Shown here piece by piece: positions 5,074 to 60,747 of a DNA stretch of 64,000 bases. The stretch's first letter is position 1, and the number at the start of each line of letters is the position of its first letter. Position numbers and translations under genes: made by a program. Source of the DNA: Lacipirellula parvula (GTDB taxonomy: Bacteria; Planctomycetota; Planctomycetia; Pirellulales; Lacipirellulaceae); assembly GCF_009177095.1 (NCBI RefSeq), contig NZ_AP021861.1, positions 6,120,501 to 6,184,500 on the forward strand, written 5' to 3'. Under the pieces are notes generated by a model. It searched no databases. It was given only the letters and a program-made list of their open reading frames with translations, and was not told where the DNA came from.

Positions 5074-5235
5074 AGCCGCCGGTCAACGACCGGCCGGAGC
5101 GGTGCGCAAATGGGGAATGTGGAATGCTGTATGTGGAGAAGCCTAGGTAACCGCAAGCCTGCTGTGGCTCGCCATTCCCCATTCAGCATTCCACATTTGA
5201 TTCCGTCGCTCCGGCGGGTCGTTGACCCGCGGCTA
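5074..5235. repeat. Inverted pair of TAG-foot palindromes around a word-repeat hairpin
   Basis: Two copies of a GC-rich palindromic unit, 5074-5102 and its inverted partner 5207-5235, flank a third palindrome (about 5108-5198). The arms of that third palindrome contain the words GGGGAATG and GGAATGCTG and their complements. Read on the minus strand, the right copy begins GTAGCCGCGGGTC, and its TAG (5233-5235) is the stop codon of the cyclophilin gene. Further copies of the unit lie at 6378, 7756, 15571 and 15949. Confidence 0.8.
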
Positions 5236-6123
5236 CTTGCGGCGACGCGCCAAGCGACAGCCGACGACGGCTAGAAAAGCGATCGTCGCGGCGGCGGGTT
5301 CCGGAACGGCGGCCACCGCCGCTACGGCCGGGGCGCCAAAGTTCTGTCCAAACGTCCTTTGCCAGACCAAAAAATCGGCGCCGTTCACGGTGCCGTCGCC
5401 GTTGCCATCGGCCTCGGCTTTGGTGGTCGAACCAATGTCTGATTTCCACACGGCTAGGTCGGCAGCGTCGACCTTGCCGTCGAAGTTGTAATCGCCCGCG
5501 GGAACGTTAAGCGGCAAGATCGTATTGAAGGTGACCAGATTCGCCTTCACGATATTGCCGGTGGTGTAATTGCGGACTGGAAGGGTGTCGAATGGGCTGC
5601 CAGCGTTGACGCGAGGCAATGCTGCAATCGCATCGACCACCGTCATCCCGTTACCGACGACTCTACCAAACGCAGTGAAGCCGCCGTTCTGCGCATCCAA
5701 GTTTGCAGCGTTATTGGCAAGATTGAAAAACCATTGGTTGGTGGCGCTGTTCGGGTCGCCGCCAAGTTTGGCCATCGCAATCGTGCCGCGCAGATTCGAG
5801 ATGCCCGGTTCGTTCAACACCGCCGGGTCTTGCGAGACGCTCTGTACCCCAACGGCATCGGAGGGAAACTTGAATCCTCCGCCTTGCACCACAAATCCCG
5901 GCACACTGCGATGGATGAACGTGTCGACCCAATCGCCGCCGTTGGCGTAGTTCAGAAAGTTGGCCGTCGAGAGCGGCGTCGCGGTCTGATACAACCGCAC
6001 GTCGATGTTGCCGAGCACGGAGTTGAACCGCACGACGACGGCTTCAGCGCGCCAAGCGCCAAGCAACGAAAACGCGAAGACGCACGCCGCCAGCAGGCGA
6101 GGTAGATGACGACTGAACTGCAT
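5233..6123 (-). CDS. Exported cyclophilin-type peptidyl-prolyl isomerase with dockerin and PEP-CTERM
   Basis: A 296-residue protein with four parts. Residues 1-28 are a signal peptide. Residues about 30-210 are a cyclophilin domain, recognised by VQGGGF, GTIAMAK and NQWFFNL motifs and expected to catalyse prolyl cis-trans isomerisation. Residues about 212-265 are a dockerin type I module (GDYNFDGKVDAADL and DGNGDGTVNGADF). The end carries a PEP-CTERM sorting tail (VPEPAAA, hydrophobic stretch, RLARRRK). The frame is open to 6312, but the ATG at 6123 starts the signal peptide. The dockerin plus PEP-CTERM tail implies display on the cell surface or in the matrix. The stop codon is the first three bases of a palindromic repeat. 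Confidence 0.9.
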   Translation of the reverse strand: MQFSRHLPRLLAACVFAFSLLGAWRAEAVVVRFNSVLGNIDVRLYQTATPLSTANFLNYANGGDWVDTFIHRSVPGFVVQGGGFKFPSDAVGVQSVSQDPAVLNEPGISNLRGTIAMAKLGGDPNSATNQWFFNLANNAANLDAQNGGFTAFGRVVGNGMTVVDAIAALPRVNAGSPFDTLPVRNYTTGNIVKANLVTFNTILPLNVPAGDYNFDGKVDAADLAVWKSDIGSTTKAEADGNGDGTVNGADFLVWQRTFGQNFGAPAVAAVAAVPEPAAATIAFLAVVGCRLARRRK

Positions 6124-6444
6124 CAATGGGGTCTGCTCAACGGTCTGCTTCAAGACAATGCCGCAATCACGCAAAAAACCTTTGCGATTGCGTCGTCTTG
6201 GTTCTGTTCCGGAAACTCGCGAACCGGCCGCAAACGCCGGTCTTTCTAGGGTAGTCGCGGTCTGCGAACGTGTCCACGAACCCGCCCCGGGACGTGGCGA
6301 CAGCCGGTGCATTTGATAAAATCGCTACGCCGCGAAGGCGTGGACACTTTTCATGCGGCCGGAACGCTTCTGCGCGCCGCTCCGGCCGGTCGTTGACCGG
6401 CGGCTCCTTTCAACTCACTACTCACTCAGCCCCCAACGATCGCT
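6124..6444. other. Divergent intergenic region, cyclophilin/xylA
   Basis: A 321-base divergent promoter region. It holds one copy of the palindromic unit at 6378-6405 (CGCTCCGGCC...GGCGGCT). Just before xylA it has a short run of the words ACTCACT. No confident promoter boxes were identified. Confidence 0.5.
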
Positions 6445-7755
6445 ATGCCAGCATTCCCTGAAATCGGCAAGATTCCGTACGAAGGTCCCCAGAGCAAGAA
6501 CCCGCTCGCGTTCCGGCATTACAACGCCGACGAAAAGGTCGAAGGCAAAGCGATGCGCGACCACCTGCGGTTCAGCGTCGTTTACTGGCACACCTTCCGC
6601 GGCACCGGCTCCGATCCCTTCGGCCCCGGCACCGCCGTCCGCCCGTGGGAGAGCGGCAGCGATTCGGTGGAGAACGCGCAGAACCGTGCTCGCGTCGCCT
6701 TCGAGTTCATTGAAAAGCTCGGCGCCCCCTTCTACGCCTTCCACGATCGCGACGTCGCCCCTGAGGGAAAGACGCTCGCCGAGAGCCACAAGAATCTCGA
6801 CGCGATCGTCAAGGTCTTCAAGGAAGAACAGCAGCGGACCGGCATCAAGTTGCTGTGGGGCACCGCGAACCTATTCAGCAACCCGCGGTTCATGCATGGC
6901 GCCGCGACGAGCCCGAACGCCGAAGTCTTCGCCTACGCCGCCGGCCAAGTGAAGAAGGCGATGGAAGTGACGCACGAACTCGGCGGCGTCGGCTACACCT
7001 TCTGGGGCGGCCGCGAAGGGTATCAGTGCATCTGGAATACCGACATGAAGCGGGAACTCGACCACTTGGCGAAGTTCCTCCACATGGCGGTCGACTACGC
7101 GAAGCAAATCGGCTTCAAGGGTCAGTTCTACATCGAGCCGAAGCCCAAAGAACCGACCAAGCATCAGTACGACAGCGACGCGGCGGCCTGCCTCAACTTC
7201 CTCCGCGAATACGGCTTGAAGGATCACCTCAAGCTGAACCTCGAAACGAACCACGCGACCCTCGCCGGCCACACGATGCAGCATGAACTGCAAGTCGCCG
7301 GCGCGGCCGGGGCCCTCGGTTCAATCGACGCCAACACGGGCGACATGCTGCTCGGCTGGGACACCGACCAGTTCCCGACCGACATCTACCTCACGACGCA
7401 GTGCATGTACGAAGTGCTGAAGTACGGCGGGTTCACCACCGGCGGCGTCAACTTCGACGCGAAAGTACGGCGCGAAAGCTTCGAGCCGATTGATTTGTTC
7501 TACGCCCACATCGGCGGCATGGACGCGTTCGCTCAGGGCCTGAAGATCGCCGCCGCGATGCGAGCCGACGGCAAGCTGCCGGGAATCATCAAGGACCGCT
7601 ACGCCAGCTGGGACAGCGGGTTGGGCGCCGAGATCGAGGGGGGCAAGCACTCGCTCGCCTCGCTCGAAAAGCTAATGCTCGAAAAGGGCGAAGCCGCCGG
7701 CAACCGCAGCGGCCGCCAAGAAATGATCGAGAATCTCATCAACACCTACCTGTAG
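6445..7755 (+). CDS. xylA: Xylose isomerase
   Basis: A 436-residue enzyme, the normal length for class II xylose isomerase, which interconverts D-xylose and D-xylulose (and glucose and fructose) in the cytoplasm. Family signatures are all present: [14 protein letters not shown] near residue 50, the catalytic His region [13 protein letters not shown] at about 95-108, FWGGREGY, the metal-binding [29 protein letters not shown] and DTDQFP. Planctomycetes use it for plant- or algae-derived sugars. No xylB or transporter is adjacent; the gene is flanked by a cyclophilin and a HAD gene. A terminator-like hairpin and a palindrome follow the stop directly. Confidence 0.97.
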
Positions 7756-7784
7756 TAGCCGCGGGTCAACGACCCGCCGGAGCG
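7756..7784 (+). repeat. TAG-foot palindrome abutting the xylA stop
   Basis: A 29-base unit starting TAGCCGCGGGTCAACG and ending CCGGAGCG. It begins at the base after the xylA TAG stop, giving GTAGTAG. Other copies in the window are at 5074, 5207, 6378, 15571 and 15949. Confidence 0.85.
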
Positions 7785-7804
7785 AAACAAGTAGCGTCAT
7801 CAAC

Positions 7805-7850
7805 AAAGGAGCCAGCGATAGTCGTCAAACTTCCGCTGGCTCCTTCTTCT
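7805..7850 (+). terminator. Probable terminator of xylA
   Basis: A 12-bp perfect stem, AAGGAGCCAGCG (7806-7817) with its complement (7834-7845), has a 16-base loop and is followed by the T-rich run CTTCTTT. It lies 50 bases beyond the xylA stop. The long loop makes it a less than ideal intrinsic terminator. Confidence 0.55.
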
Positions 7851-8013
7851 TTGCGCCTACGCGTCTTTGCGTGAGATCAAAGAGATACAGGTCTCTCGCA
7901 AAGGCGCAGAGGCGCAAAGAAATACGCAAAGAAGAAACACATGGGGAGAAGCGGCTTATATACCGCTCGTATTCTTTCGTTCTTTTCGTGTGTTTCGTGT
8001 GTTTCGTGGTAAA
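7849..8013. repeat. Word-repeat element, copy 1 (partial composite)
   Basis: The inner hairpin at 7849-7931 has arms made of the word GGCGCAAAG and its complement around GTGAGATC/GTCTC. One outer arm follows at about 7975-8012, made of the words TTTCGT and GTGTTTCGTG. The opposite outer arm found in the two complete copies (8764 and 15631) is missing. The element separates the convergent xylA and HAD genes. Confidence 0.75.
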
Positions 8014-8025
8014 AAATCCCCGCAT

Positions 8026-8658
8026 TCAAAGCACGCCACGAGCCGCTAGATCCGCACGCAACTTCGCCGCATCGACGAACAACGTAGCATCGAGCCCGAC
8101 CGCCAGCGCTCCGTCGACGTTTTCCTGCCGATCGTCGGTGAAGAAGACTTGCCCCGGCTCGACGCCGGCCAGCTTCGCCGCGTGTTCGTAGATCGCCGGC
8201 TCCGGCTTCATCGAGCGAACTTCGAAGCTCAGCACATACTGCTCGAACGAATTGTTGAGAAACGGGTAACGCCCCGAGGTGACGAACTCCCAATCAAGCG
8301 TGTTGGTGTTCGACATGATCCCCAGCCGGCGACCGCTCGCGGCTAGTTGCTCGACGATCGCGACGCTCTCCTCGATCACCTCGAAGATGTCGCGCCCCGC
8401 GGCGAACAGTTCCTCGCGATTCGGTTCAACGCCAAGCGTCTCGCAAAAGTGGTCGTACACCGCCAGCACATTGAGATCGCCCCGCTCGAACCGCCACTGA
8501 ACGCTGCGGGCGCTCCCCTTCGCCTCGAACAGGGCATGCCGCACCAGCTCGGCCGAGACGCCGGCCACCTCGGCCATCTGCTGGCACATCCGCTCGTGGC
8601 TGAACGACAGCAAAACGTTGCCCAAATCGAAGTAGAAAAAAGCGGGAGTCGCAGGCAT
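8026..8658 (-). CDS. HAD-superfamily hydrolase (YihX-like)
   Basis: A 210-residue cytoplasmic phosphatase of the haloacid dehalogenase superfamily. Motif I is FDLGNVL at about residues 10-16, with the nucleophilic Asp followed by LGN as in the YihX sugar-phosphate phosphatases. Motif II is IMSNTN near 115, and motifs III and IV are KPEPAIYEHA and FFTDDRQENVDGA at about 155-185. The helical cap lies between motifs I and II. The substrate is not predictable from sequence, though YihX relatives act on alpha-glucose-1-phosphate and similar sugar phosphates. The gene converges on xylA, and its promoter side abuts a composite repeat. Confidence 0.87.
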   Translation of the reverse strand: MPATPAFFYFDLGNVLLSFSHERMCQQMAEVAGVSAELVRHALFEAKGSARSVQWRFERGDLNVLAVYDHFCETLGVEPNREELFAAGRDIFEVIEESVAIVEQLAASGRRLGIMSNTNTLDWEFVTSGRYPFLNNSFEQYVLSFEVRSMKPEPAIYEHAAKLAGVEPGQVFFTDDRQENVDGALAVGLDATLFVDAAKLRADLAARGVL

Positions 8659-8763
8659 GGCGGCGCCTATAATTTTGCGTGCAGATTTCGGGGTGCGAGC
8701 GATCGGCTGGTCTCTGTTATAACAATTCGCCGTTTGCCTGGTGAGATTTCTAATACAGGGAGA

Positions 8764-8945
8764 TTAACCACGAAACAGACGAAAGGAACGAAAATAATGC
8801 TCTGATTTGCATCCCCCTTTGCGCCTCTGCGCCTTTGCGTGAGACATGTATTCAATAGATCTCACGCAAAGGCGCGAAGGCGCAAAGAAACACGCAAAGC
8901 AAGACAATTTCTTTTTTCGTTCCTTTCGTCTGTTTCGTGGTTAAA
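8764..8945. repeat. Complete nested word-repeat element, about 180 bp (copy A)
   Basis: The outer arms (8767-8795 and 8912-8944) are reverse complements made of the words ACGAAA and GACGAAAGGAACG. The inner arms (8816-8845 and about 8860-8890) are reverse complements made of GCGCAAAGG and GTGAGA. The connectors TAATGCTCTGATTTGCATC and CAAGACAATTTC are shared with the copy at 15631-15811, which is nearly identical over its whole length. The element lies between the start of the HAD gene and the start of the C45 gene and contains no coding sequence. Confidence 0.9.
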
Positions 8946-8984
8946 ACTCTTCCCGCTAGATCCAACAATTCAAGTGAGAGTGAG

Positions 8985-10124
8985 ATGCATCGATTGATTG
9001 CCGCATGGGTTGTTGCCTTTGGGATGGTCGCCGCCGGCGCTGGGACGCTGCTCGCGAAACCGGCGGAGTCGCTGTTCACTGCCAAGAAAATCGACGGCGC
9101 GGAGCTGCGGTTCATCGGCAACGTGCCGGTCGCCATCCTCACCGGCACGCCCGCGGAAATCGGCCGGCAGCATGCGGAGCTACTCGCCGGCCCCGGCAAG
9201 GGGATGGTCGAGTTCCCCAAACGCTTTGCCGAGCGATTCGGCGTCGAGGCCTTTTGGCCGCTGGTGACCCAAGCCGGCAAGACGCTTGTCTCGCGGGCGC
9301 CACAGTCGCATCAACAAGAACTCGCTGCGATCGCCGCTAACAGCGACATCACCGCCGACCAACTCGCCGTCGGCAACACGCTGCTTGAGCTGCGCCGCCT
9401 TGGCTGCTCCGCCGTCGTCGTCGAACCGGCGCGAAGCAAAACCGGCGCGCCGATCTTCGGCCGCAATTTCGATTTCCCCACGCTTGGTGATCTCGACAAG
9501 TACAGCATGGTGATCGTCTACCGCCCCGAAGGAAAACATGCGTTCGCGTCGATTGGCTTCCCCGGACTCGTCGGCGTCATCTCGGCGATGAACGACGCCG
9601 GCCTCGCCGCGGGGACGCTCGACGTTGAACGCTCGGCCGACGGTTCGCGGAAATTTAACCCGACGGGCGAGCCGCTGGCGTTCGTCTTCCGCCGCATCAT
9701 GGAAGAGTGCACCACCGTCGACGAAGCGGAGAAGCTGCTCCGCAGCGTCAAGCCGACCACGTGGATGAACCTCACCGTGTGCGACCGCAACGGCGGGGCG
9801 ACGTTTGAGATCACCCCCGATCACATCGCACGACGCAACGCCGAGAACGGCATCGTCCGCTGCACGAACCATTTCCGCTGCGACGGTATGAGCGTCGGCG
9901 AAGAATGCTGGCGCTACGACGCCCTCGCAATCGACGACCTCGCGGACAAGATCGAAGTCCGCGAGGTGCAACTGGCGCTCGACGGCGCCAACCAAGGCGC
10001 CATGACGCTGCAAACAATGATCTTCGAACCGCGCGACCTGACGCTCCACCTGGCGATCGGCAAACCGCCCGTCTCGTTGAACAAGATGGAAAAGATCGCG
10101 TTAGCCCCGCTTTTTAAGCACTAG
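8985..10124 (+). CDS. Exported C45-family acyltransferase/peptidase-like protein
   Basis: A 379-residue Ntn-hydrolase-like protein of the C45 family (acyl-coenzyme A:6-aminopenicillanate acyltransferase relatives). The probable nucleophile is the Cys in RRLGCSAVV, followed by GAPIFGRNFDFP, which is the family signature around residues 125-165. Later motifs such as NDAGLAAGTLD and CTNHF fit the same fold. A signal peptide covers residues 1-23 (AAGAGTLLA end), so it acts outside the cytoplasm. In self-processing members the Cys becomes N-terminal. Here a C45 fold with long N-terminal region is seen, but cleavage cannot be shown. The ATG at 8985 is preferred over an upstream in-frame start at 8937 that lies inside the repeat element. 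Confidence 0.83.
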   Translation: MHRLIAAWVVAFGMVAAGAGTLLAKPAESLFTAKKIDGAELRFIGNVPVAILTGTPAEIGRQHAELLAGPGKGMVEFPKRFAERFGVEAFWPLVTQAGKTLVSRAPQSHQQELAAIAANSDITADQLAVGNTLLELRRLGCSAVVVEPARSKTGAPIFGRNFDFPTLGDLDKYSMVIVYRPEGKHAFASIGFPGLVGVISAMNDAGLAAGTLDVERSADGSRKFNPTGEPLAFVFRRIMEECTTVDEAEKLLRSVKPTTWMNLTVCDRNGGATFEITPDHIARRNAENGIVRCTNHFRCDGMSVGEECWRYDALAIDDLADKIEVREVQLALDGANQGAMTLQTMIFEPRDLTLHLAIGKPPVSLNKMEKIALAPLFKH

Positions 10125-10129
10125 CAGTA

Positions 10130-10213
10130 TTTCCTTTGCGTCTTCGCGCCTTTGCGTGAAACCTGCATTCAATTGGTCTCACGCAAAGGCGCGAAGGCGC
10201 AAAGAAGAGGAAA
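10130..10213. repeat. Word-repeat hairpin (GCGCAAAG family)
   Basis: The arms TTTCCTTTGCG... (10130-10163) and ...GCGCAAAGAAGAGGAAA (10174-10213) are reverse complements built on the word GGCGCAAAG, with a loop of about 12 bases. The right arm ends in an AGAGGAAA that imitates a ribosome site before an ATG at 10214. Confidence 0.85.
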
Positions 10214-10221
10214 ATGGCATA

Positions 10222-10257
10222 CGCCGCGGCAAGCTGCGGCGAGCTTGCCGCGGCTAA
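10222..10257. repeat. GC-rich palindrome ending in TAGCCGCGGC (minus strand)
   Basis: The unit CGCCGCGGCAAGC...GCTTGCCGCGGCTAA reads TTAGCCGCGGCAAGC on the minus strand, so it has the same TAGCC foot as the other palindromes. A half-sized relative (GCGGCAAGCCGC) directly follows the TAA of the DUF2071 gene at 14861. Confidence 0.7.
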
Positions 10258-10348
10258 CGCTCCTGCTGAACTTCGCGATTGCGACTGCTCGATACCTTTA
10301 ACTGTATCTGCCGTCGCTTCTCTGCTTTTGTCGTCGCGAGGTGCTATC

Positions 10349-11113: not shown

Positions 11114-11157
11114 ACCGCGGAGCCATCTTTCAAGCCCCCGCACTCACGCCACCAAGC

Positions 11158-11247
11158 AGCCGGAGGGCCACGCCCTCGGGGCCGCCCTGCCGGGAGGCGC
11201 TGCGAATCTCAAACGCACCGCCGCCCGGACCGCGTGGCGGTCCGGCT
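11158..11247. repeat. Paired short palindromes (GGCCACGCC type)
   Basis: A left hairpin CGGAGGGCCACGCCCTCGGG and a right hairpin CGGACCGCGTGGCGGTCCGG lie about 50 bases apart. The same paired layout recurs at 14924-15012, where both feet read TAG. Confidence 0.75.
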
Positions 11248-14863: not shown

Positions 14864-14923
14864 GCGGCAAGCCGCGGGGTGCATTCGCTGAACCTGGGTC
14901 CCTCCGACGGGCTCATCTGCTCT

Positions 14924-15012
14924 AGCCGGAAGGCCACGCCTTCCGGGATGATGTGCGGACCGGGCGTAAACCCTCTCGGCGCCGCCCCCGGACCGCGTGG
15001 CGGTCCGGCTAC
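14924..15012. repeat. Paired short palindromes with TAG feet (GGCCACGCC type)
   Basis: The left unit is TAGCCGGAAGGCCACGCCTT, continuing CCGGG. The right unit, read on the minus strand, is GTAGCCGGACCGCCACG. The two feet point outward as CTAG and GTAG. A related pair is at 11158-11247. Confidence 0.8.
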
Positions 15013-15066: not shown

Positions 15067-15573
15067 ATGTCCCTCGCCATTCGCCCCGCCGCCGAAGCCG
15101 ACCTCCCGGCGATCAACGCTATCTACAACCACTACGTCGTCACCTCGACGACGACGTACGACCTCGCGCCACTGCCGCTCGAAGATCGTCAGCGTTGGTT
15201 CGCGGGCCGTGACAAAATTCACCCAGTGATCGTCGTCACCACGCAAACTAGCGGCATAGAAAAAATCGTCGGCTGGGGATCGCTCAACGTCTTCCGCTCA
15301 AAGCCGGGCTACCGCTTCACCGTCGAGAACTCGGTGTACGTTCACCCCGACCATCAGCGGCAAGGCATCGGCTCGGCGATCATTCAGCACCAGATTCAAC
15401 AAGCGAAAGAACTCGACCTCCACGCGATCGTTGCCGGCATCGGCGCCGAGCAAACGGCCAGCATCGCCCTCCACGGAAAGCATGGCTTCGTCGAAGTCGC
15501 CAGATTCCCCGAGATCGGCCGCAAGTTCGACCAGTGGCTCGACGTGGTCTTCATGCAGCGACTAATCAAGTAG
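15067..15573 (+). CDS. GNAT N-acetyltransferase (phosphinothricin acetyltransferase-like)
   Basis: A 168-residue acetyltransferase resembling the Pat/Bar/YncA branch of GNAT. The N-terminus IRPAAEADLPAINAIYNHYV, with TSTTTYD after it, is typical of that branch. The acetyl-CoA loop is HPDHQRQGIGSAI at about 98-110, and the C-terminus has LHGKHGF. It probably acetylates an amine or amino-acid analogue; members range from drug-resistance to methionine sulfone acetylation. The frame is open to 14953, but the conserved domain begins at the ATG at 15067. The stop codon TAG at 15571 is also the first three bases of a palindromic repeat. Confidence 0.85.
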   Translation: MSLAIRPAAEADLPAINAIYNHYVVTSTTTYDLAPLPLEDRQRWFAGRDKIHPVIVVTTQTSGIEKIVGWGSLNVFRSKPGYRFTVENSVYVHPDHQRQGIGSAIIQHQIQQAKELDLHAIVAGIGAEQTASIALHGKHGFVEVARFPEIGRKFDQWLDVVFMQRLIK

Positions 15574-15599
15574 CCGCGGGTCAACGACCCGCCGGAGCG
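15571..15599 (+). repeat. TAG-foot palindrome supplying the GNAT stop codon
   Basis: The unit TAGCCGCGGGTCAACG...CCGGAGCG is identical over its 29 bases to the copy at 7756-7784. Its first triplet is the in-frame stop of the acetyltransferase gene, preceded by AAG, which gives the GTAG foot. Confidence 0.88.
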
Positions 15600-15811: not shown

Positions 15812-16011
15812 CCTCCCCTGAAGTGCAATCAGCGTGACTAACGGCAAAATAGCCTGGTTTTCCCCCCCCCGCGAACCGCCTGCCGCGTTCGGCCCTCTGT
15901 GGTTAAAATGGAAGGCTCGCGATTTTGTGGGAGCGTTTCATTAGTACTCGCTCCGGCCGGTCGTTGACCCGCGGCTACTGAACCCCGAACCCTGATACCT
16001 GAACCCTCTCT
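15812..16011. repeat. ilvD leader: palindrome plus reiterated CTGAACCC words
   Basis: The leader contains a half copy of the GTGGGAG element (15924-15936), a TAG-foot palindrome in reverse (15949-15977), and then the reiterated word CTGAACCC (15978-16008) running to within a few bases of the ilvD ATG. No clear ribosome site is visible. The same word run precedes the M50 gene at 60780. Confidence 0.7.
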
Positions 16012-31510: not shown

Positions 31511-32509
31511 ATGAGCCGAGTTTTCACCTGGACCGCGTCCACTGCACTCGCCGTCGGACTCTTGCCGGCGGCCACTCAAGCAAGTTCCGTCTACGCCGAG
31601 TACCACGCCGGCCCCACGACCTCGACGAGCACCCCTGCCAAAGTGTGGAGTCCCGAACTCTGGGGTTGGTACGACCTCAACAGCGGTTCCATCGGCCCCG
31701 CCGGCGCCGGAACGGTGAACACAGGCGGCTCCGGCCTCAACGCCTGGCGCGTGACTGATCAACGCGCTTCGCTGCCGAATTCGATCTACGTTACCGATTT
31801 CCTTTCGCCCGACCTGGCGAGAATCGCCGTCAACGGCTGGCGAATGAGCAGCACCATCCGTTACGTCAACGATTTCGGCGGCGGACCGAACCTGGGCATG
31901 TCGGCCTTCCTCGGCGGACGCGCCTATCACATGATGCTCGACCTCACCGCCAGCGGCGATCTCCGCGTCACGCTGCATGACGAGACGACGCGTTCGTATC
32001 AAATCACGAACAACGGGCTCGGCACGGCCGCACTCCATCGTTTTCAGTTCATCAACACGCCGCAAGCGGCGACGGTCGCGCTTTCCGTCGACGGCGTCGT
32101 CCTCGACAGCACGTGGGACGGAATTCTGCTCGCCAATCACCCCAGCAATGTTCAGTGGGGCAATAGCGATCAGGCGGGCGTCAACCTCGGCGTGGCCGAC
32201 TATCAGGAAGTCTTGTTCGAGATCGGCCCGTTCACCGAGTCGCGCGGCGACTTCAACGGCAACGGCGTCGTCGACGGCGCCGATTTCATGATCTGGCAGA
32301 ATTCTGCGTCGCAGCCGTTCGATCTCACCGCCGACGCCAACGGCGACGGCCGCGTCGATGGCGCGGACCTCGCGGTGTGGAAAACCAACTTCGGCACGCG
32401 CTCGACGACGGCAACCGTCAGTGAAGTCCCTGAGCCGGTGTCGTCGGTGCTACTCGCAGTCGGCGGCCTCGCTGGCGTCATGACGCGGCACTCGCAACGA
32501 CGCCTCTAG
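31511..32509 (+). CDS. Exported dockerin and PEP-CTERM surface protein
   Basis: A 332-residue protein. The signal peptide covers about 1-25, then a beta-rich body of unknown fold to about 240. A complete dockerin type I pair (GDFNGNGVVDGADFMIW and DANGDGRVDGADLAVW) lies at about 243-298. The tail is VPEPVSSVLL, hydrophobic span, SQRRL. It closes the co-directional sigma/FecR/pseudopilin cluster. A GC-rich hairpin (about 31438-31470) lies in its leader. The stop TAG at 32507 is the first triplet of a palindromic repeat. Body function is unknown. Confidence 0.83.
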   Translation: MSRVFTWTASTALAVGLLPAATQASSVYAEYHAGPTTSTSTPAKVWSPELWGWYDLNSGSIGPAGAGTVNTGGSGLNAWRVTDQRASLPNSIYVTDFLSPDLARIAVNGWRMSSTIRYVNDFGGGPNLGMSAFLGGRAYHMMLDLTASGDLRVTLHDETTRSYQITNNGLGTAALHRFQFINTPQAATVALSVDGVVLDSTWDGILLANHPSNVQWGNSDQAGVNLGVADYQEVLFEIGPFTESRGDFNGNGVVDGADFMIWQNSASQPFDLTADANGDGRVDGADLAVWKTNFGTRSTTATVSEVPEPVSSVLLAVGGLAGVMTRHSQRRL

Positions 32510-32530
32510 CCCCGGGCTCCGCCCGGGGGT
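32507..32530 (+). repeat. TAG-foot palindrome supplying a stop codon
   Basis: The unit TAGCCCCGGGCTCCGCCCGG, continuing GGGT, begins with the stop of the preceding gene; the foot is CTAG. Relatives are at 43743-43766, 51740-51764 and, inverted, 51804-51829. Confidence 0.85.
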
Positions 32531-32742
32531 AACCTCACGCGCGACGAACGAAATCAAATCCTGGGGTCCCCTCCCCTTGAAGGGGAGGGTTAGGGAGGGG
32601 TGACGGGAGCGGGTACCAGGGTTCCACCCCGTCCCCAGCCCTCCCCTCAAGGGGGAGGGAGCCAGAGCATTCAGCCAGGCGCAGCTGGCAGTTGAATAAG
32701 ATTTGAGCCCAATGGCTGGAGAGGCAATGACTGCGCTGCAGC

Positions 32743-42596: not shown

Positions 42597-43745
42597 ATGG
42601 CCGCAGCAGACACCATCGTCGACAGCGAACTTGACGACCGCGAACTTCGTCACGTAATGAACGAACTATCCCGCGAAGAGCAAGACGGCGCTCAGAAGGT
42701 ACAAGTTTTCGCCGAACGGCTCCTCAACGTTTACAATGACGCCGCGCTGGCGCTGATGATTTCCATCGGCCACCGCACGGAACTGTTCGACAAGCTTGCC
42801 GACCTCGATCCATCGACCAGCACCGAAATCGCCGAGGCGACCGGCCTCAACGAACGTTACGTCCGCGAATGGCTCGGCGCCATGACCACTGGCGGCGTTG
42901 TTTCGCACAACCCGCACACGCATCGATACTGGCTTCCCGCTGAGCGGGCGGCCTTGCTGACCAGGGCCGCGAGCCCCAATAACCTTGCTTCCGTGGCGCA
43001 ATGGTTCGCGGTCCTGGGCAGTGTTGAAGATAAAATTGTCGACGCCTTCACGCACGGCAAGGGCGTTCCCTATTCTGCGTATGGCCGCTTCCACGAAGTG
43101 ATGGCCGAGGAGAGCAACCAAACTGTCGTCGGCGGACTCGACAACCATATCCTCCCGCTCGTGCCGGGACTGATTGAAGAATTACATCGCGGCATCGATG
43201 CGGTCGACGTCGGCTGCGGTCGCGGCAAGGCGCTGATTCACCTGGCGAAGCGTTTTCGGAACAGCCGCTTCACCGGGGTCGACTGCAGTGAAGAGACGAT
43301 TCGCGAGGCAAACGCAGAAGCGGCGGAGTTCGGGCTAACGAACTTGAAGTTCGAATGCACCGACGCCGCGAAGTGGGACGCGACCGACGACTTTGACTTG
43401 GTCCTGGCGTTCGACGCGATCCACGATCAGCCGGCGCCAGACCGCGTGTTGGCGAACATCCGTCGCGCCCTGCGAGCCGACGGCCTGTTCCTGATGCAAG
43501 ACATCGGCGCCGCCAGCTGCGTCCACGGCAACATGAATCACCCCGTCGGTCCGTTCCTCTACACAATCTCCTGCATGCACTGCATGAGCGTGTCGCTGGC
43601 CGGCGGCGGCCCGGGCCTCGGCGCCGCGTGGGGCAAGGAACTCGCACTGCAAATGCTCGACGAAGCCGGCTTCAACGACGTCCGCGTCGAACAACTACCG
43701 CACGACATCATCAACTATTACTACGTAGCGTATCCCTCCCCCTAG
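42597..43745 (+). CDS. SAM-dependent methyltransferase with winged-helix N-domain
   Basis: A 382-residue protein. The N-terminal winged-helix/dimerisation region (about 30-115, with LFDKLADLDPSTSTEIAEATGLNERYVREWLGAMTTGG) resembles O-methyltransferases. The class I Rossmann methyltransferase domain (about 185-340) shows motif I VDVGCGRGKALIHLAKRF and motif II FTGVDCSEETI. DLVLAFDAIHDQP is motif IV. It likely methylates a small molecule. ATG 42597 has GAAAGG 6 bases upstream. The stop codon TAG is the first triplet of a palindromic repeat. Confidence 0.88.
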   Translation: MAAADTIVDSELDDRELRHVMNELSREEQDGAQKVQVFAERLLNVYNDAALALMISIGHRTELFDKLADLDPSTSTEIAEATGLNERYVREWLGAMTTGGVVSHNPHTHRYWLPAERAALLTRAASPNNLASVAQWFAVLGSVEDKIVDAFTHGKGVPYSAYGRFHEVMAEESNQTVVGGLDNHILPLVPGLIEELHRGIDAVDVGCGRGKALIHLAKRFRNSRFTGVDCSEETIREANAEAAEFGLTNLKFECTDAAKWDATDDFDLVLAFDAIHDQPAPDRVLANIRRALRADGLFLMQDIGAASCVHGNMNHPVGPFLYTISCMHCMSVSLAGGGPGLGAAWGKELALQMLDEAGFNDVRVEQLPHDIINYYYVAYPSP

Positions 43746-43828
43746 CCCCGGGCTCCGCCCGAGGGTGAGCCTCCACCTCGATAGACATCGTCGTAAGTAA
43801 CGCCACCCCCTGGCTGAGCCAGGGGCTA
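43743..43828. repeat. TAG-foot palindromes after the methyltransferase gene
   Basis: The first unit (43743-43766, TAGCCCCGGGCTCCGCCCGA) supplies the methyltransferase stop codon. A second palindrome (43805-43828) reads on the minus strand TTAGCCCCTGGCTCAGCC. The two face each other, 38 bases apart. Confidence 0.82.
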
Positions 43829-51738: not shown

Positions 51739-51830
51739 GTAGCCCCGGGCTTCGCCCGGGGGTCGCGCACCACGCCGATGGCACGTTGCCTCTACTCCAA
51801 GCCGACCCCCGGGCGGAGCCCGGGGCTAGA
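51739..51830. repeat. Inverted pair of TAG-foot palindromes (CCCCGGGC type)
   Basis: The left unit is GTAGCCCCGGGCTTCGCCCG (51739-51764) and the right unit (51804-51829) reads CTAGCCCCGGGCTCCGCCCG on the minus strand. The loop is about 40 bases. Both feet point outward. They lie between the glycosyltransferase and zinc-ribbon-like genes. Confidence 0.87.
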
Positions 51831-51845
51831 GGCTTGAACGGCGAG

Positions 51846-54542: not shown

Positions 54543-54597
54543 GGCAGGAAACTCGTCGATGGTGCGAGCAGGCGCTCGCGGATGTAGTTTGAAAACG

Positions 54598-54635: not shown

Positions 54636-54669
54636 AAATCTAATCGAAATCAGCTCAGTTCAACAGGCC

Positions 54670-56373
54670 TTAGAACCCACGCGGGGCCCCGGCGCCTTGC
54701 ATCCGGGCCTGATTCGCGGCGGCGCCGATCGCTTTCAGCACGCCGTCTTCAAGCAGCAGCCGGGTACGGACGCCGTTCTCGACCGGTTCGCCCAGCAGGC
54801 GAATGTGATCCGCGTCGCTCCCGGCCTTCTTCACCGCAACCTGCAGGTTCTCGATCATCGGCTTCTTGTCTGCCTCGGCGATCGACTTGGCAAACTCAAG
54901 GGCCTGCGTCAAACCAACCGTCAGCTCGAAGGGGGTGATCGACTTCTTCGGCGACTTGGCCGAAGCTTCGATCGCCTTCTTCACCGCAGCGACGGGGTCG
55001 CTGCCGATGGCAAAGTAGACGGCGTTCTTGCCGACGCCGACGATCATCTCGCCGTTCTCGCTCAGCAGCTTCTTCGCCTTCTCGTCGGCGCCGCCGGGGA
55101 TCTTGTAGGTGACGTTGTGGAACTTCACGTCGGCGGCCGTTTCCGCATCGAGATCGAGCTTCGGCATGTCGACCGTCTGAACTTCGGCGTACTTCTTCAG
55201 GCCGTCGACCACCTTCTGCGAATCAACGACGTAGGCGCCGGCGACCAAGCTGAAAGAGTTGTCGCCCATTTCGAGCGAAGCGCCGCCGTCGGTGACGCCG
55301 CCCTCGATAGTCGCCTGCATCGCCGCCAGGAAGTCGTTGAGCGCGTCCTTGGCCTTCGCCTTCGAGGCGTCGTCCTTGATCTTTGTTGTCTTTTCGATTT
55401 CCTTCGTGACCGTGGTGCGAATCGTTTCGACCATCTGCTTCACTTGCGACTGATCGACGCTGTTCGCCGCCGACGCGAACGACAGGTTCATGGCCGCATC
55501 GGGCTTCGAGAAGCCAGCGAAGTTCGTGGTCACCTTGCTGTTGGCGGCGAGTTGCTTGGCCAACTTCGTCCCCGGCAGCGCGGTGTAGACGAAATCCAAC
55601 AGCGTGTTCGACTTGTCGGCGTCGATCTTCAGCCCAACGGTCACTTCATCGAGATCGGAAATGAACTCGCGAGTTTGCGCGATCTGGGCTTCGACCAGCG
55701 CTTTACGCTTGGCGAACTCGGCGTCCGATTCGTCGCTCTTCTTCACCAGGCCTTGCTGGGCGCCTTGGCTGAGGGCTTCGATCGCCTGCTCACGCTGAGC
55801 TTCCGGCAGGTTCTTCACCTTGACGCGGGCGGCGATGTCGTAATCCTTCACCAACGCCTTGAATTCAGCGCCCGGATCGGCGGGGATCGACTTCAGCCAC
55901 GACGGATCGAGGCTCAACAGCGCCCAACCGTCCGACTTCTTCATGAAGGCGCTGGAGCCTTGGGGAACCTTGACCTGCGAGACGCCGTCTCCCATGTCGG
56001 TGACGGTGACGCCCATGCCTTTGGCGATGTCGAGCAGGGCGTTGACGTCGCTTACCGGCACGCACAGCGCGCCGCTCGGCATGACGCCGTCGGTGAGGAC
56101 GATCGCGCCGATCGGCTTCGACTTATCCAGGCCGGCCAAGCCTTTGCCTTGCGTGAACATCTGGACGAACTGCTCGACCATGTCCGCAGCGCCCGGCTGA
56201 TCGCCGAGTTCGCCGATGAAGTTGATGTCCTTCATCAGTTCGTCGTAGCCGGCGAACGTGATGATCGCCACCGGCTTCGCTTCGCCGGTCGATTGTGCAG
56301 CGGCCAACGGCGCCATGACGGCCCCGACAACGAGGCCGCAAACGGCCATCCAACGGGTAAGGTGAGTTCGCAC
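54670..56373 (-). CDS. Large exported protein of unknown function
   Basis: A 567-residue protein. The GTG at 56373, with GGAG 7 bases upstream, gives a signal peptide (about 1-28, ending PLAAAQ). The body is a mixed alpha/beta protein rich in Lys and Asp, with segments AIITFAGYDELMKDINFIGEL and SMGDNSFSLVAGAYVVDSQKVVDGLKKYAEV, and no recognised catalytic motif. The C-terminus ends in a short basic stretch GAPRGF. Planctomycetes have many such exported, repeat-poor proteins. It lies between lysA and infA and is terminated by a strong hairpin. Confidence 0.8.
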   Translation of the reverse strand: MRTHLTRWMAVCGLVVGAVMAPLAAAQSTGEAKPVAIITFAGYDELMKDINFIGELGDQPGAADMVEQFVQMFTQGKGLAGLDKSKPIGAIVLTDGVMPSGALCVPVSDVNALLDIAKGMGVTVTDMGDGVSQVKVPQGSSAFMKKSDGWALLSLDPSWLKSIPADPGAEFKALVKDYDIAARVKVKNLPEAQREQAIEALSQGAQQGLVKKSDESDAEFAKRKALVEAQIAQTREFISDLDEVTVGLKIDADKSNTLLDFVYTALPGTKLAKQLAANSKVTTNFAGFSKPDAAMNLSFASAANSVDQSQVKQMVETIRTTVTKEIEKTTKIKDDASKAKAKDALNDFLAAMQATIEGGVTDGGASLEMGDNSFSLVAGAYVVDSQKVVDGLKKYAEVQTVDMPKLDLDAETAADVKFHNVTYKIPGGADEKAKKLLSENGEMIVGVGKNAVYFAIGSDPVAAVKKAIEASAKSPKKSITPFELTVGLTQALEFAKSIAEADKKPMIENLQVAVKKAGSDADHIRLLGEPVENGVRTRLLLEDGVLKAIGAAANQARMQGAGAPRGF

Positions 56374-56667
56374 CTGAGATCTCCATCCAAGGTAAGGTGA
56401 AAGGCGCCGAAGCGCCGTAGCAGGCGAAACGGTAGAAGATAGGCGGAGTCGACGCGGCGGCAAAGCGGTCGCCGTGAAACTAGCGGACCAACCTGCAGAA
56501 ACCGGGCAGTCTCTCCGATCGCACGAATCGTCGGCGAGCAGACGCCGGCAAAGCTGCAGCATCCCCCCGACAAACGTCGCGGCGCGATCAATGCGTTCAA
56601 ACTGCGCTCGTCAATGCGCGCAGCAGCGCCGCCGCGTGTGATAGCGCCCCCCAGCGCCAGCGACGGC

Positions 56668-56892
56668 TTAGCGTTCGCGGAACGTAATGCGGCCCTTGGT
56701 CAGATCGTACGGCGAAAGTTCGACGCGAACCTTGTCGCCCGGCACGATGCGGATGAAGTTCTTCCGCATCCGACCAGCGACGTGAGCGGTGACCTGATGC
56801 CCCCCCTCGATCTCCACGCGGAACCGCGTGTTCGCCAGTGCCTGGGTCACGACCCCTTCAACTTCTAGGGCCTCTTCTTTTTGCTTTGACAT
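56668..56892 (-). CDS. infA: Translation initiation factor IF-1
   Basis: A 74-residue S1/OB-fold protein that binds the 30S A-site during initiation. The whole sequence matches IF-1 ([60 protein letters not shown]). The ATG at 56892 is correct because the family begins MxKxxExxEVEG. It is not in a ribosomal operon here. A weak ribosome site fits a factor needed at low stoichiometry. Confidence 0.97.
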
Positions 56893-57408
56893 AAAAACGT
56901 TGGTCTCGTTGCCTAAGGAACGCCACTCGCCGCCCAACAGCAGGCGCGCACGCAGCGAACCCTGTACATCGGCACATCCGACAATCCTAGCATTCGGGAA
57001 CCCGCGGTCCAACAGGCAGAAGTCACGGTTTTGCAGTGATTTACGCCGATTGCAGGCCCCGTTTGCCGCGATCGCTCATCCGCGGGACGCCCCGCGGAAG
57101 ATGACAGCACCGGCAACGATATTCCGACTTCTTCGGCCCGATTGGATTGATCTTGCCGAAAATGCGGGGGGCGAGTCTCTTTCCTGGCAAAAACTGATAA
57201 CTCGCCTCGGCGAGGCGACTGCTGCAAAAATGCCGGCAAGGTCATCGCAAATTGCCCTCAAGTCGTTGTCTACCAACAATTTGACTGCCAGCAGGCAAGG
57301 CGTGAGAATTGAAAAATTGCCCTCACTCCCCGATGCCAGCGTCGGGCGCGCGAAGACTCCTTTTGCCGACTTCCACGGCGCCGCCGCTAGGCCCTTGTTC
57401 CAATATCC
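56893..57408. other. Divergent intergenic region, infA/GAF-HlyD
   Basis: This 516-base divergent region has open frames on both strands (for example minus 57076-57450) without starts or family motifs, and no repeat of the window's families. It should contain two promoters. No -10/-35 pair could be assigned. Confidence 0.4.
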
Positions 57409-59550
57409 ATGAGCACCCGGACTCCCGAACACGTGAGCAGCGCGTCGCAACCCGATGATGATGCCGTCAATCGCGCGAAGCAGGAGATCCAGGCGCTCGT
57501 CCAGGAGGTCGTCGCTCTTTCCAAAAGCGAAATCGAAGAGACCGACTTTTTCGCCGCCCTCCTCGAAAAGTCGATCTCCGCGCTAGCGGCCATCGGCGGC
57601 GTCGTGTGGACGCTCGAAGAGGGGCAGCCGTTCAAGCTGCAATATCAGGTCAACCTGCAGCAAACCGGGCTCGCCGCTAGCCAGGCGGCCCAGATGCAGC
57701 ACGCGAAGCTGCTGGGAAGCATCGCCCAGCGGGGCGAACCGCTGCTGATTCCGCCTCACTCCGGCGCCGGCGAAGGGCCAGAGGATGCGGGCGCCGCCAA
57801 CCCGACTGAATATCTGCTCGTCGTCGCCCCCATCAAAACCGATCGCGGCGTCGACGGCCTCGTCGAAATTTTTCAACGCGTCGGCGCACGGCCGACCACC
57901 CAGCGCGGCTACCTGCGCTTCCTCGTGCAGATGTGCGAGATCGCCGGCGAGTATCTCAAGACGCGCCGCCTGCGGCACTTCGTCACCAAGCAATCGCTCT
58001 GGGAGCAACTCGAGAATTTCACCGCCTCGGTCCACACGCGGCTCGACTCGCGGCAAACCGCCTTCACGATCGCCAACGAAGGACGCCGCCTGATTGGCTG
58101 CGATCGCGTCACCGTCGTCCTCCGCAAAGGAAGCTCGTACGTCGTCGAAGCGATCAGCGGGCAAGATACGTTCGACAAGCGTTCAAACGTCGTCCGCATG
58201 CTGCGCAACCTGGCGACGGTCGTCGTTCGCAGCGGCGAAGACCTGTGGTATACGGGCGACACGCAGAACCTCGCGCCGCAAGTTGAGAAGGCGGTCAACG
58301 AGTACGTCGACGAATCGCATACCAAGCAAATCGCCGTCCTGCCGATCCGCGAGCACGATCCGCACGCCGACGACAAAACCCGCGATCGCAAACGCGAGAA
58401 CATGCTCGGCGCGATCATCATCGAACAGCTCGTCGACAGCCGCGCCCCAGACGGGTTGATGCAGCGCGTCGACGTCGTTCGCCGGCATAGCGCCACGGCG
58501 CTTACTAACGCTCAATCGCACGAAGGCTTGTTCCTGCTGCCGCTGTGGCGGTTGATCGGCCAAAGCCGCGTGCTCGTCACGGCCCGCAATCTGCCTAAGA
58601 CGATCCTCGCATCGATTGCGATCGTCGCCGCCGTGCTGGCGATGTGGCTCTTTCCGTGGGATTTCAACGTCACGGCCGACGGCAAGCTGCAGCCTGAAGT
58701 CCGCGCGAATGTTTTCGCCGCGGTCGACGGCCGCATTACTGACGTCCTAGTCACCGAAGGGCAGGCCGTAAAGAAGGGCGAGTTGCTCGCCAAGCAGCGA
58801 AGTTCGCCGCTTGAGGACCAGCGCGCCCAGCTTGAAGGCGAAATCGCCGCCAACGAGCAAGACTATCGTTCGAAGCGAGCCCAGGAAGGCTCGCTCGACA
58901 AAGCGCGAACTCCGGAGGCGGACCTCTACGACCTCCAAAGCCAGATTTCGCAAATCGAAACCAAAGCGATCGCGTTGCAGAAGCAGTTCGAAATCCTCAG
59001 GGAGCAGGAATCGCGACTCAACATCACCAGCCCGATCGACGGCAACATCGTTACTCCCAAGGTGCAAGAACTGCTTCGCGATCGCACTGTCGGCCCCGGC
59101 ACTAAGATCATGGAAATCGCCGACATGACGCAAGACTGGGAGCTGGAACTCAAAGTCCCTGAAGCCAAGATGGGCCACGTCCGCGCGCAGCTGCGCGAGT
59201 TGCACGCTCAGGATCCTAAAGCCCAGCTCGAAGTCACCTTCATCCTGGCAACCAACCCCGACATCGAAGACAAACTCGCCGGCCGCGTCATCTACATCGC
59301 CCCCACTGCCGAGGCCGAAGGCGAAAAAGGAAATCTGGTGACGATGACGGTGGCGTTCAACCAGGAAGAACTCGCCAAGCTCGGCCCCGAGGGCGTCGCC
59401 ACCGAACAGGCGATCGCCGCTCTCAAAGAACACCTCAAAGTCGGTGCCGACGTCAAAGCCAAGATCCGCTGTGGCCGCAAGCCAATCGGCTACGTCTGGT
59501 TCCATGAACTGTGGGAATTCATCCAGTCGCGAATATTGTTCAGAATGTAA
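57409..59550 (+). CDS. GAF-domain membrane-fusion (HlyD-like) protein
   Basis: A 713-residue inner-membrane adaptor. The N-terminal 190 residues are a cytoplasmic GAF-like region (VDGLVEIFQRVGARPTTQRGYLRFLVQM), and a second GAF-like region covers about 200-375 (VTVVLRKGSSYVVEAISGQ, KQIAVLPIREHD). A TM helix lies at about 398-418. The periplasmic HlyD part has the biotinyl-lipoyl halves (VFAAVDGRITDVLVTEGQAVKKGELLAKQRSS and LNITSPIDGNIVTPKVQELL) and a coiled coil between. The C-terminus ends in a CusB-like barrel (KIRCGRKPIGYVW). It starts the GAF-HlyD/HlyD/M50 set and likely couples a cytoplasmic signal to secretion. Confidence 0.85.
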   Translation: MSTRTPEHVSSASQPDDDAVNRAKQEIQALVQEVVALSKSEIEETDFFAALLEKSISALAAIGGVVWTLEEGQPFKLQYQVNLQQTGLAASQAAQMQHAKLLGSIAQRGEPLLIPPHSGAGEGPEDAGAANPTEYLLVVAPIKTDRGVDGLVEIFQRVGARPTTQRGYLRFLVQMCEIAGEYLKTRRLRHFVTKQSLWEQLENFTASVHTRLDSRQTAFTIANEGRRLIGCDRVTVVLRKGSSYVVEAISGQDTFDKRSNVVRMLRNLATVVVRSGEDLWYTGDTQNLAPQVEKAVNEYVDESHTKQIAVLPIREHDPHADDKTRDRKRENMLGAIIIEQLVDSRAPDGLMQRVDVVRRHSATALTNAQSHEGLFLLPLWRLIGQSRVLVTARNLPKTILASIAIVAAVLAMWLFPWDFNVTADGKLQPEVRANVFAAVDGRITDVLVTEGQAVKKGELLAKQRSSPLEDQRAQLEGEIAANEQDYRSKRAQEGSLDKARTPEADLYDLQSQISQIETKAIALQKQFEILREQESRLNITSPIDGNIVTPKVQELLRDRTVGPGTKIMEIADMTQDWELELKVPEAKMGHVRAQLRELHAQDPKAQLEVTFILATNPDIEDKLAGRVIYIAPTAEAEGEKGNLVTMTVAFNQEELAKLGPEGVATEQAIAALKEHLKVGADVKAKIRCGRKPIGYVWFHELWEFIQSRILFRM

Positions 59551-59553
59551 AGG

Positions 59554-59638
59554 CGTCCGTTGTCAGTGGTCAGTAGTCAGTTGCGATTGATTGAACATCC
59601 TCATTAGCAACTGACGACTGACGACTGACCACGGACAA
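59554..59638. repeat. Word-repeat hairpin (CAGTxGTCAGT family)
   Basis: The left arm (59554-59584) is made of GTCAGT words and the right arm (59607-59637) of GACTGAC words. They are reverse complements with a 22-base loop. The element fills the gap between the GAF-HlyD and HlyD genes, ending 13 bases before the next ATG. Confidence 0.88.
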
Positions 59639-59650
59639 ACGGAGTTTCCA

Positions 59651-60619
59651 ATGTCATCCACTCTTCTCGTCATCCTCGCTCTCTTCGCTCAAGTGGCGGA
59701 GACGCCGAATTATCGGTACGGAGGCCAAGACCACAAACAACAGCAAGTGGACGCTAACGGCGACCCCGTGTTCGAGGGAGCGTCGATCACAGCTGAGGAA
59801 GATTCGATCATCTCCGCCGAAGCCGAAGGAACGCTCGTCAAGCTTGCCGTGAAGGAAGGCGATCGCGTCGCCCAGAAGGGCGTGCTCGCAACGATCGACG
59901 AACGTCTGGCGAAGGCTCAAGTCGAAGCGGCCAAGCTGACGCTCGACGCCGCCACCGAGCGTGCGAACGACATGGTCGAAGAAAAGTACGCAATCCTGGC
60001 TCGCGACGTCGCTGAAGTCGATTGGAAGAAAGACGTCGCCGCCAATACGGACAGCCAAAAGGCGGTCACCGAGATTCAGATTTTGCAGAAGAAGCTGGTC
60101 TACGATCGCTCGAACTTGCAGATCGACAAAGCCCGCAAAGATCAAGTCATCGCCAAGAAGGAAGCCGCCGTCAAAGGCGCCGAGCTGAAAGTCGCGGAGA
60201 TCGGTCTCGACCGCCGCATTATCAAGGCGCCGTTCGAAGGCGAGGTCCAGCAGCTCTTTCAAAAAGAATCGCAATGGGTCAACCCGGGCGATCCAATCCT
60301 GCGGCTGGTGAAGTTCGACGTCCTCCGCGTCGAAGGTCGCGTGCTCGCCGCGCACTTCGACCCCGCGGAACTCGCCGGCAAGCCAGTGACCGTGAGCGTC
60401 ACGCTCGCCCGCAACCGGCAAGTGGAGTTGCCTGGCCGGGTCACCTATGTCGGCCAGACGGTCAACATCAACAAGGAGTTCATCGTCCGTGCTGAGATTC
60501 AAAACAAGCGCGAGGGCGACTACTGGCTCGTTCGCCCAGGCCTGATTGCCAAGATGACGATCCACGTGAACCAGCCGGCGGAACCACAAGCCCGCGGCGT
60601 CGCGGCGCCGGCGAAATAG
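59651..60619 (+). CDS. HlyD-family periplasmic adaptor
   Basis: A 322-residue adaptor. The N-terminal hydrophobic segment (LLVILALFAQVAET) is a signal or anchor. The biotinyl-lipoyl half is ISAEAEGTLVKLAVKEGDRVAQKGVLATIDERLAKAQVEAAKLTLD, then a coiled coil (about 85-180), then the second lipoyl half IKAPFEGEVQQLFQKE and a beta-barrel (VSVTLARNRQVELPGRVTYVGQ). The ATG at 59651 has GGAG 6 bases upstream, just after a hairpin. Stop TAG 60617 is the first triplet of a palindromic element. It is the middle gene of the GAF-HlyD/HlyD/M50 set. Confidence 0.9.
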   Translation: MSSTLLVILALFAQVAETPNYRYGGQDHKQQQVDANGDPVFEGASITAEEDSIISAEAEGTLVKLAVKEGDRVAQKGVLATIDERLAKAQVEAAKLTLDAATERANDMVEEKYAILARDVAEVDWKKDVAANTDSQKAVTEIQILQKKLVYDRSNLQIDKARKDQVIAKKEAAVKGAELKVAEIGLDRRIIKAPFEGEVQQLFQKESQWVNPGDPILRLVKFDVLRVEGRVLAAHFDPAELAGKPVTVSVTLARNRQVELPGRVTYVGQTVNINKEFIVRAEIQNKREGDYWLVRPGLIAKMTIHVNQPAEPQARGVAAPAK

Positions 60620-60747
60620 CCTCGTCCCACGCTCCGCGTGACGACGCGGGTGTCGCCACTTTGCGGCGTGTTCGTTTAGCTGCTCAACGATAAACGAATG
60701 ACGCAGCGCGTGGGAACGAGGCGCCGGGGGCGGGACGCCCCGGCTCG
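60617..60747. repeat. TAG-foot palindromic element (TCGTCCCACGC type) with nested palindromes
   Basis: The element starts TAGCCTCGTCCCACGCTCCG, continuing CGTG. The TAG is the stop of the adaptor gene. The matching arm is GCGTGGGAACGAGG (60708-60721). A nested CGTTTAGCTGC...GATAAACG pair and a GC-rich palindrome GCCGGGGGCGGGACGCCCCG lie at its end. Confidence 0.72.

Follow-up and report, generated by a model that had tools for sequence, protein, structure and literature searches.

Repetitive extragenic palindromes (REPs) of the GTAG super-family are small palindromes, rich in GC, whose GTAG foot stays unpaired; they occur in high copy number and as inverted dimers and lie mostly downstream of genes. 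According to Di Nocera et al. (2013, PMC3733652), Planctomycetes are among their hosts, and the GTAG termini often supply the TAG stop codon to flanking open reading frames. In the planctomycete Lacipirellula parvula, a window of 64,000 bp (positions 6120501-6184500 of the 6.92-Mb single-contig genome) contains palindromic units of this type whose TAG foot is exactly the stop codon of the adjacent gene. Both the kind of element and its coincidence with stop codons are already known; new are the families reported here, the ortholog evidence, the explanation by site availability and the species-specific foot. Going beyond the published description, the stop position appears to predate the unit in most of the alignable cases. 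No published empty-site comparison at such stops was found in a literature search that reached few subscription papers. On balance it is probable that the units are REPs and REPINs (REP doublets forming hairpins) which insert at family-specific TA sites supplied by stop codons, and that those located behind genes are the ones that survive.

The analysis employed 1,261,808 bp of L. parvula with 879 called genes (5720501-6922258 plus 1-60000) and 1,367,332 bp with 969 called genes of Lacipirellula limnantheis, the nearest relative among the searched genomes. The two genomes are largely collinear and the sets share 576 reciprocal best ortholog pairs. An earlier L. parvula set of 864 kb was replaced by the 1.26-Mb set, except for the control-foot counts. 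By our own gene calls TAG is the most frequent stop codon in both species (341/879 and 354/969), apparently an uncommon situation at a high GC content (62.5% in the window).

The units were sorted into families A to F. Family A has the core TAGCCGCGGGTCAACGACCCGC plus two stem variants, one core variant being present in 45+48 = 93 exact copies genome-wide; the core TAGCCCCGGGCTCCGCCCGGGG and variants of family B amount to 205+198 = 403 copies at no more than two mismatches, and the reversed controls gave 0 copies in both searches. As in the GTAG super-family (PMC3733652), these are short, GC-rich, many-copy palindromes with an unpaired foot, arranged also as inverted dimers. Their placement is extragenic and mainly downstream of genes, the density of A-C units per intergenic kb being 1.46 between convergent, 0.64 between codirectional and 0.26 between divergent genes. 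REPINs, as described by Bertels and Rainey (2011, PMC3116915), consist of two inverted REPs plus a spacer, and 36 inverted pairs of family B with the same layout are found in L. parvula, 28 of them spanning 86-92 bp; single units also occur. In contrast to REPINs, the B pairs are known here from sequence alone. The earlier note had taken the GTAG foot as the hallmark of REP elements mobilized by REP-associated tyrosine transposases (RAYTs); the REP- and REPIN-like character of the units stands, whereas GTAG is not the foot of every family. It is found in 34/36 TAG feet of family A (12 more A feet read CAG) and in 10/10 of family F, but family B carries CTAG in 64/80 TAG feet and mostly CAG in relatives, and family C TTAG in 23/23, which sets B and C apart from the GTAG super-family. 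A subfamily resembling B but ending in AAG as its foot (AAGCCACCGGCTCCGCCGGTGG) was also observed, at positions 168312, 222407, 350403, 464265 and 571297 of the joined L. parvula index.

A clear excess of feet on stop codons emerged from this part of the genome when it was scanned as the earlier note had suggested. In families A-C, 28 of the 139 TAG feet in the 1.26 Mb coincide exactly with a stop codon (A 10/36, B 14/80, C 4/23; none in D, E and F), and two further family A units start directly behind a stop. The corresponding numbers in L. limnantheis are 5/17, 3/34 and 0/6. Of the 68 L. parvula feet that lie no more than 40 nt from a stop, 28 fall on this single position, for which about 1.7 would be expected under a uniform distribution (P = 1e-26). 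All 28 of these stops are TAG, though only 341 of the 879 stops are (P = 3e-12), and unit cores directly behind TAA or TGA are absent from the sets of both species. Gene ends were taken from a simple codon-usage gene caller of our own with no annotation as a check, which leaves some room for chance or a gene-calling artefact; this is hardly credible, as most gene ends are confirmed by orthologs and the coincidence depends on the foot. In the 864-kb set, 149 hairpins combined a TAG foot with an intergenic centre, compared with a range of 36-109 when 12 other trinucleotides were taken as the foot, and feet on a stop numbered 22 for TAG, four for TAA and two for TGA, no other feet being able to coincide.

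Comparison with the orthologs shows what occupies these positions where the unit is missing. For the 30 stop-sited genes of L. parvula (28 on the foot, two just before it), 24 orthologs without the unit, one with a shared unit and five cases without an ortholog were found; seven of the nine stop-sited genes of L. limnantheis (8 + 1) have an ortholog lacking the unit. C-termini were judged strictly, with the final 20 residues compared without gaps, in place of a more lenient measure (27/31 the same). By this measure, 20 of the 31 unit-free orthologs from both directions end at the same codon, seven are shifted by 1-4 codons and four cannot be aligned. Two genes ending in TAGTAG were omitted from the foot counts because the stop there is not the foot, leaving 29 orthologs (22 + 7) with 18 same, seven shifted and four unalignable, i.e. 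18/25 of the alignable ones. TAG genes without a unit provide the background: of 207, 143 end at the same codon, 49 are shifted and 15 cannot be aligned (143/192 of the alignable ones). The same-codon share thus lies at the background rate, which means that the unit moved the stop no more often than happens anyway, and judging from these alignments most units appear to have been placed on already existing stops. In line with the earlier note, the aligned empty sites at stops do not show unrelated bases, a result confined to stops, as intergenic empty sites are too few for a judgement.

An element that brings its own TAG and inserts anywhere near gene ends would instead create a new stop in one frame out of three, truncating or extending the protein. 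This alternative is held to be unlikely, since it accounts neither for 28 coincidences at one position nor for C-termini that are unaltered at the background rate. Moreover, were insertion random, out-of-frame feet should outnumber the in-frame ones, and only two out-of-frame feet occur in the last 300 nt of genes in L. parvula and two, both CAG, in L. limnantheis, which speaks for insertion at existing sites. Both findings, on the C-termini and on the reading frame, led us to reject truncation by random in-frame insertion as the main route. The identity of the base in front of the foot, described below, does not favor an element-borne TAG in L. parvula either.

Stop codons do not need to be preferred for such insertions to accumulate on them. 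Occupancy was defined as the share of xTAG sites (x = C, G or T) taken by A-C units, a denominator which presupposes that the TAG of the unit existed as a site before insertion, the very point at issue. In L. parvula it amounts to 28/303 at stops, 23/108 at 3-20 nt, 17/115 at 21-40 nt and 3/198 at 41-100 nt behind them, 62/3144 in other intergenic sequence and 4/6321 within genes; the L. limnantheis values in the same order are 8/305, 11/81, 4/94, 1/249, 21/3303 and 6/6402. Units are thus concentrated in the first 40 nt behind genes. Stops are occupied far more often than other intergenic sites or sites within genes, but less than the sites at 3-40 nt (P = 0.004 and 0.006, respectively), and for YTAR sites (Y, pyrimidine; R, purine) of family B in L. 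parvula 14 occupied and 225 free stops compare with 26 and 222 at 3-40 nt (P = 0.07; L. limnantheis P = 0.016). A special preference for stops over neighboring sites was therefore rejected: relative to the number of available sites, stops are taken no more often than the sequence shortly downstream, and no such preference is needed. What stop codons provide is number, as they constitute 303 of the 526 xTAG sites within the first 40 nt after genes. The claim that units use stop contexts hence holds in so far as they sit at CTAG, GTAG and TTAG stops, but not with regard to a preference or selection for stops, given an occupancy of 28/303 below that of the sites at 3-40 nt.

The same numbers bear on the idea that selection retains hairpins at stops because they act in translation termination, at mRNA 3' ends or on gyrase. 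REPs no more than 15 nt from a stop have been reported to lower translation in E. coli (PMC12306157, citing earlier work), a distance said there to stall ribosomes, and 51/176 A-C units in L. parvula begin within it; the density maximum between convergent genes (see above) would also be in keeping with such a role. The hairpins resemble the E. coli REPs in this distance, but differ in having a foot formed by the stop codon itself. Apart from the lower occupancy of stops relative to the following 40 nt, the genes with a unit at 3-40 nt show an ordinary stop mix (TAG 19/51), and only one of the 25 stop-sited genes having an ortholog shares its unit with L. limnantheis. Retention by selection is thus regarded as improbable.

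At the stop-sited units the base preceding TAG belongs to the host gene, as the wobble position of its final sense codon, and in L. parvula it matches the family: G in 10/10 for A (P = 4e-4), C or T in 14/14 for B (P = 7e-6) and T in 4/4 for C (P = 8e-4); at the remaining TAG stops, G makes up 45.7%, C 26.0% and T 16.7%. A single clean intergenic empty site (REPIN at L. parvula index 930206) has a junction reading CTAG. Wobble match and empty site may reflect a target use of the IS200/IS605 type, with insertion 3' of a fixed tetranucleotide and no target duplication, and for family B TA duplication may apply instead.

TA duplication can be illustrated by the REPIN at C1:6224025-6224110, both feet of which are stops of two convergent genes. 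The orthologs of both genes end at the same codon positions, the REPIN is missing and 48 bp lie in between; the L. parvula flanks joined over one TA give both overlapping stops, which favors TA duplication for family B. Accordingly, B units might be MITE-like (miniature inverted-repeat transposable element) with the target YTAR and an element GCCCC...GGGGC, moved by a DDE rather than a HUH enzyme; any TAA or TAG stop would become TAG through the G with which the element begins. At all 10/10 B feet located on stops, which come from 9 pairs, TA followed by the base flanking the far end would form a stop, and at one L. parvula site the rejoined flanks rebuild TAA where the ortholog also has TAA. 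However, the 10/10 are not decisive, as 31/36 L. parvula B pairs have a purine at this far position anyway, and the CAG...CTG pairs of L. limnantheis cannot be TA duplications. The scheme does not extend to family A, where 6/9 stop-sited feet yield TAC upon rejoining (one pairing of 407 bp, probably two units, was set aside), so that TA duplication for all families was rejected. Overall, a MITE-like origin of family B is considered fairly unlikely.

The foot of family B differs between species. Exact B cores stand behind CTAG and CAG, respectively, in 230 and 12 cases in L. parvula, 25 and 117 in L. limnantheis, 16 and 239 in genome G004 and 0 and 11 in G002, and no such core was found in G001 or G005; the foot is CTAG in L. 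parvula and mostly CAG in the three congeners. Stop-sited B units number 14/102 in L. parvula and 3/87 in L. limnantheis (P = 0.02), whereas among TAG-footed B units alone the figures are 14/80 and 3/34 (P = 0.39). Access of a unit to stop positions thus seems to be governed by its foot. More tentatively, and with doubt prevailing, a foot equal to a stop codon could give REPs a safe landing: insertion at xTA(G) would leave TAG at the same codon, even in overlapping convergent stops, and the proteins unchanged, in which case family B would have gained access to stops through CTAG here as opposed to the CAG of the sister species.

Under the favored reading, insertion at family-specific TA sites, the units would be non-autonomous mobile hairpins of several families, each inserting at its own short site (A GTAG, B YTAG or YTAR, C TTAG). 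Insertions within genes or near promoters would be lost, so that survivors would be found largely within 40 nt past stops, and with most xTAG sites of this zone being stops, many units would land on one. After insertion the gene would keep TAG at the same codon, either because the host TAG is the site or, for B, because TA is duplicated and the first G of the element restores TAG. From these patterns we infer the movement itself, a HUH mover of the RAYT or IS200 type, purifying selection as the filter and the exact position of the cut. IS200/IS605 elements insert 3' of target tetranucleotides, and by analogy the units may insert 3' of xTAG.

Candidate movers are present in the genome. As in TnpA_REP/RAYT and IS200/IS605 Y1 systems (PMC8266576, PMC2817692), there is one gene matching the RAYT profile NF047646 above its cut-off and one IS200-type gene flanked by REPs. 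The former, L003, is a REP_Tyr_transpos with 119.9 bits at a cut-off of 80; NF047646 matches five places in L. parvula, and among the three matches listed one exceeds the cut-off. The latter, L001 (1401-2002 of the locus, genome position about 2347080-2347681), encodes an IS200-type transposase (149 aa) and has family F REPs (GTAGCCAGGGGCGCAAGCCCCTGG) in inverted orientation on its two sides. It is for family F that a transposase gene of this kind is seen with its cognate REPs, and L001 may represent a REPtron-like unit in a planctomycete; unlike in RAYT systems, it matches NF033573 (IS200), not NF047646. L002 is a fragment and L004 stays under the NCBIfam cut-offs. No A-F units occur in the 1.5-kb flanks of L002-L004. 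The Y1 transposase profile PF01797 has four matches in the genome and none in the window, which bears out the absence of a RAYT from the window stated in the earlier note. Among 39 genomes searched, 35 have REP_Tyr matches (28 over the cut-off) and 12 have B cores.

Several observations weigh against the favored reading. In contrast to REPINs, no RAYT was found flanking A or B units in the flanks of L001-L004. In vitro, GTAG acts in TnpA_REP as an element-borne recognition or guide motif with cleavage at CT (PMC8266576), and by analogy the foot may be borne by the element and C|T of CTAG may be cut. The pairs of family B with CAG at both ends in L. limnantheis (11/34) imply that copies in this species inherit their foot as part of the element, and the wobble match is weak in that species (A 4/5, B 1/3). 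Among the 90 syntenic intergenic clusters of L. parvula and 49 of L. limnantheis, six and one length candidates were listed, several filled in both species, and a clean empty site was seen in one of ten intergenic alignments listed (eight and two); empty copies within other repeats were found in 0/154 and 0/103 clusters. The seven ortholog stops displaced by 1-4 codons (7/29) also count here. As regards stop types, the ortholog has TAG in 11/18 same-codon cases (P = 0.045 against 0.387 among all same-end orthologs), no clear excess over other TAG genes (75/143, P = 0.31), and in 15/29 overall (P = 0.097). Including the two TAGTAG genes, which are not informative on the foot, gives 13/20 (P = 0.016) and 17/31 (P = 0.044). 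The full set of 31 orthologs comprises 17 TAG, nine TGA and five TAA stops, and TGA offers no TA site; fast stop turnover between the two species could account for it. These data fit stops that were already TAG before insertion, but support this weakly. The inherited feet (CAG/CTG pairs), the displaced stops, the indistinct stop types and the published role of GTAG ends as stop suppliers (PMC3733652) would all suit an element with its own TAG, as would TAGTAG in 5/36 family A TAG feet, where the units seem to own a TAG.

Within the window, families A, B, C and E are present, D and F being located elsewhere. The gene calls end at 5233 (minus strand), 15573, 32509, 43745 and 60619, every one with TAG, and thereby reproduce all five stops at palindrome feet named in the earlier note; at four of these stops the unit is a member of one of two high-copy REP/REPIN families, and 60617 is the weaker case. 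Family A units have their feet at 5235 (minus strand), 7756, 15571 and 15977 (minus strand). The first is the right foot of an inverted pair of 163 bp (5073-5235) with CAG as left foot and TAG as right foot, the latter being the stop 5233-5235 of the minus-strand gene 5233-6123; the L. limnantheis ortholog lacks the unit and has TAG one codon off. At 7756-7784 (plus strand) the unit places its own TAG right behind the xylA stop TAG (7753-7755), as the earlier note had it, xylA being called to 7755 and the sequence reading TAGTAG. TAG is found at the same codon of xylA in L. limnantheis and in 6/17 other relatives among the matches listed (18 of 80 loci). The unit at 15571-15599 (plus strand) has a TAG identical with the stop of gene 15067-15573, the ortholog of which has TAA at the same codon and no unit. 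The fourth unit (15956-15977, minus strand) is off any stop, and the same place is occupied in L. limnantheis.

Family B is represented by units at 32507, 43743/43828 and 51740/51828. The single unit at 32507-32528 (plus strand) has its TAG on the stop of gene 31511-32509, whose ortholog C-terminus could not be aligned; its RNA hairpin (-18.3 kcal/mol) begins directly 3' of the stop codon. The REPIN of 86 bp at 43743-43828 has the feet TAG/CTA, its left TAG being the stop of gene 42597-43745, for which the ortholog stop lies four codons further on. The other REPIN (51740-51828, 89 bp, -72 kcal/mol, z -8.6) is off any stop, its right foot lying 20 nt past the stop codon of a short minus-strand gene call. 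A family E pair with TAG feet (14923-15011) is located 62 nt past a stop. The fifth stop case is a longer inverted repeat, CCTCGTCCCACGC ... GTGGGAACGAGG (60617-60721), which starts at the TAG stop of gene 59651-60619; it forms no compact hairpin, lies outside families A-F and has its other arm at 60710-60721. The repeat is also found at that locus in L. limnantheis, there beside a TGA stop. Further repeats were observed in the window. A second family of 83-nt inverted repeats (CTTTGCGCC..GCGTGAGA..TCTCACGCAAAGGCGC..GCAAAG) is found at 7849, 8817, 10134, 15684 and 46250, some copies being adjoined by AACCACGAAA/TTTCGTGGTT sequences. Another repeat, CCCCTCCCCTTGAAGGGGAGGG, extends from 32568-32589 onward, and the L. 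limnantheis ortholog of the gene ending at 43745 has a similar sequence as its 3' end.

With about one fifth of the TAG-footed A-C units on a stop codon and a sister genome with another foot, the question of the REP target becomes directly testable. The many genes with a stable hairpin starting at the stop constitute a natural set for termination studies. Insertion at TA sites supplied by stop codons would explain why REPs so often supply stop codons.

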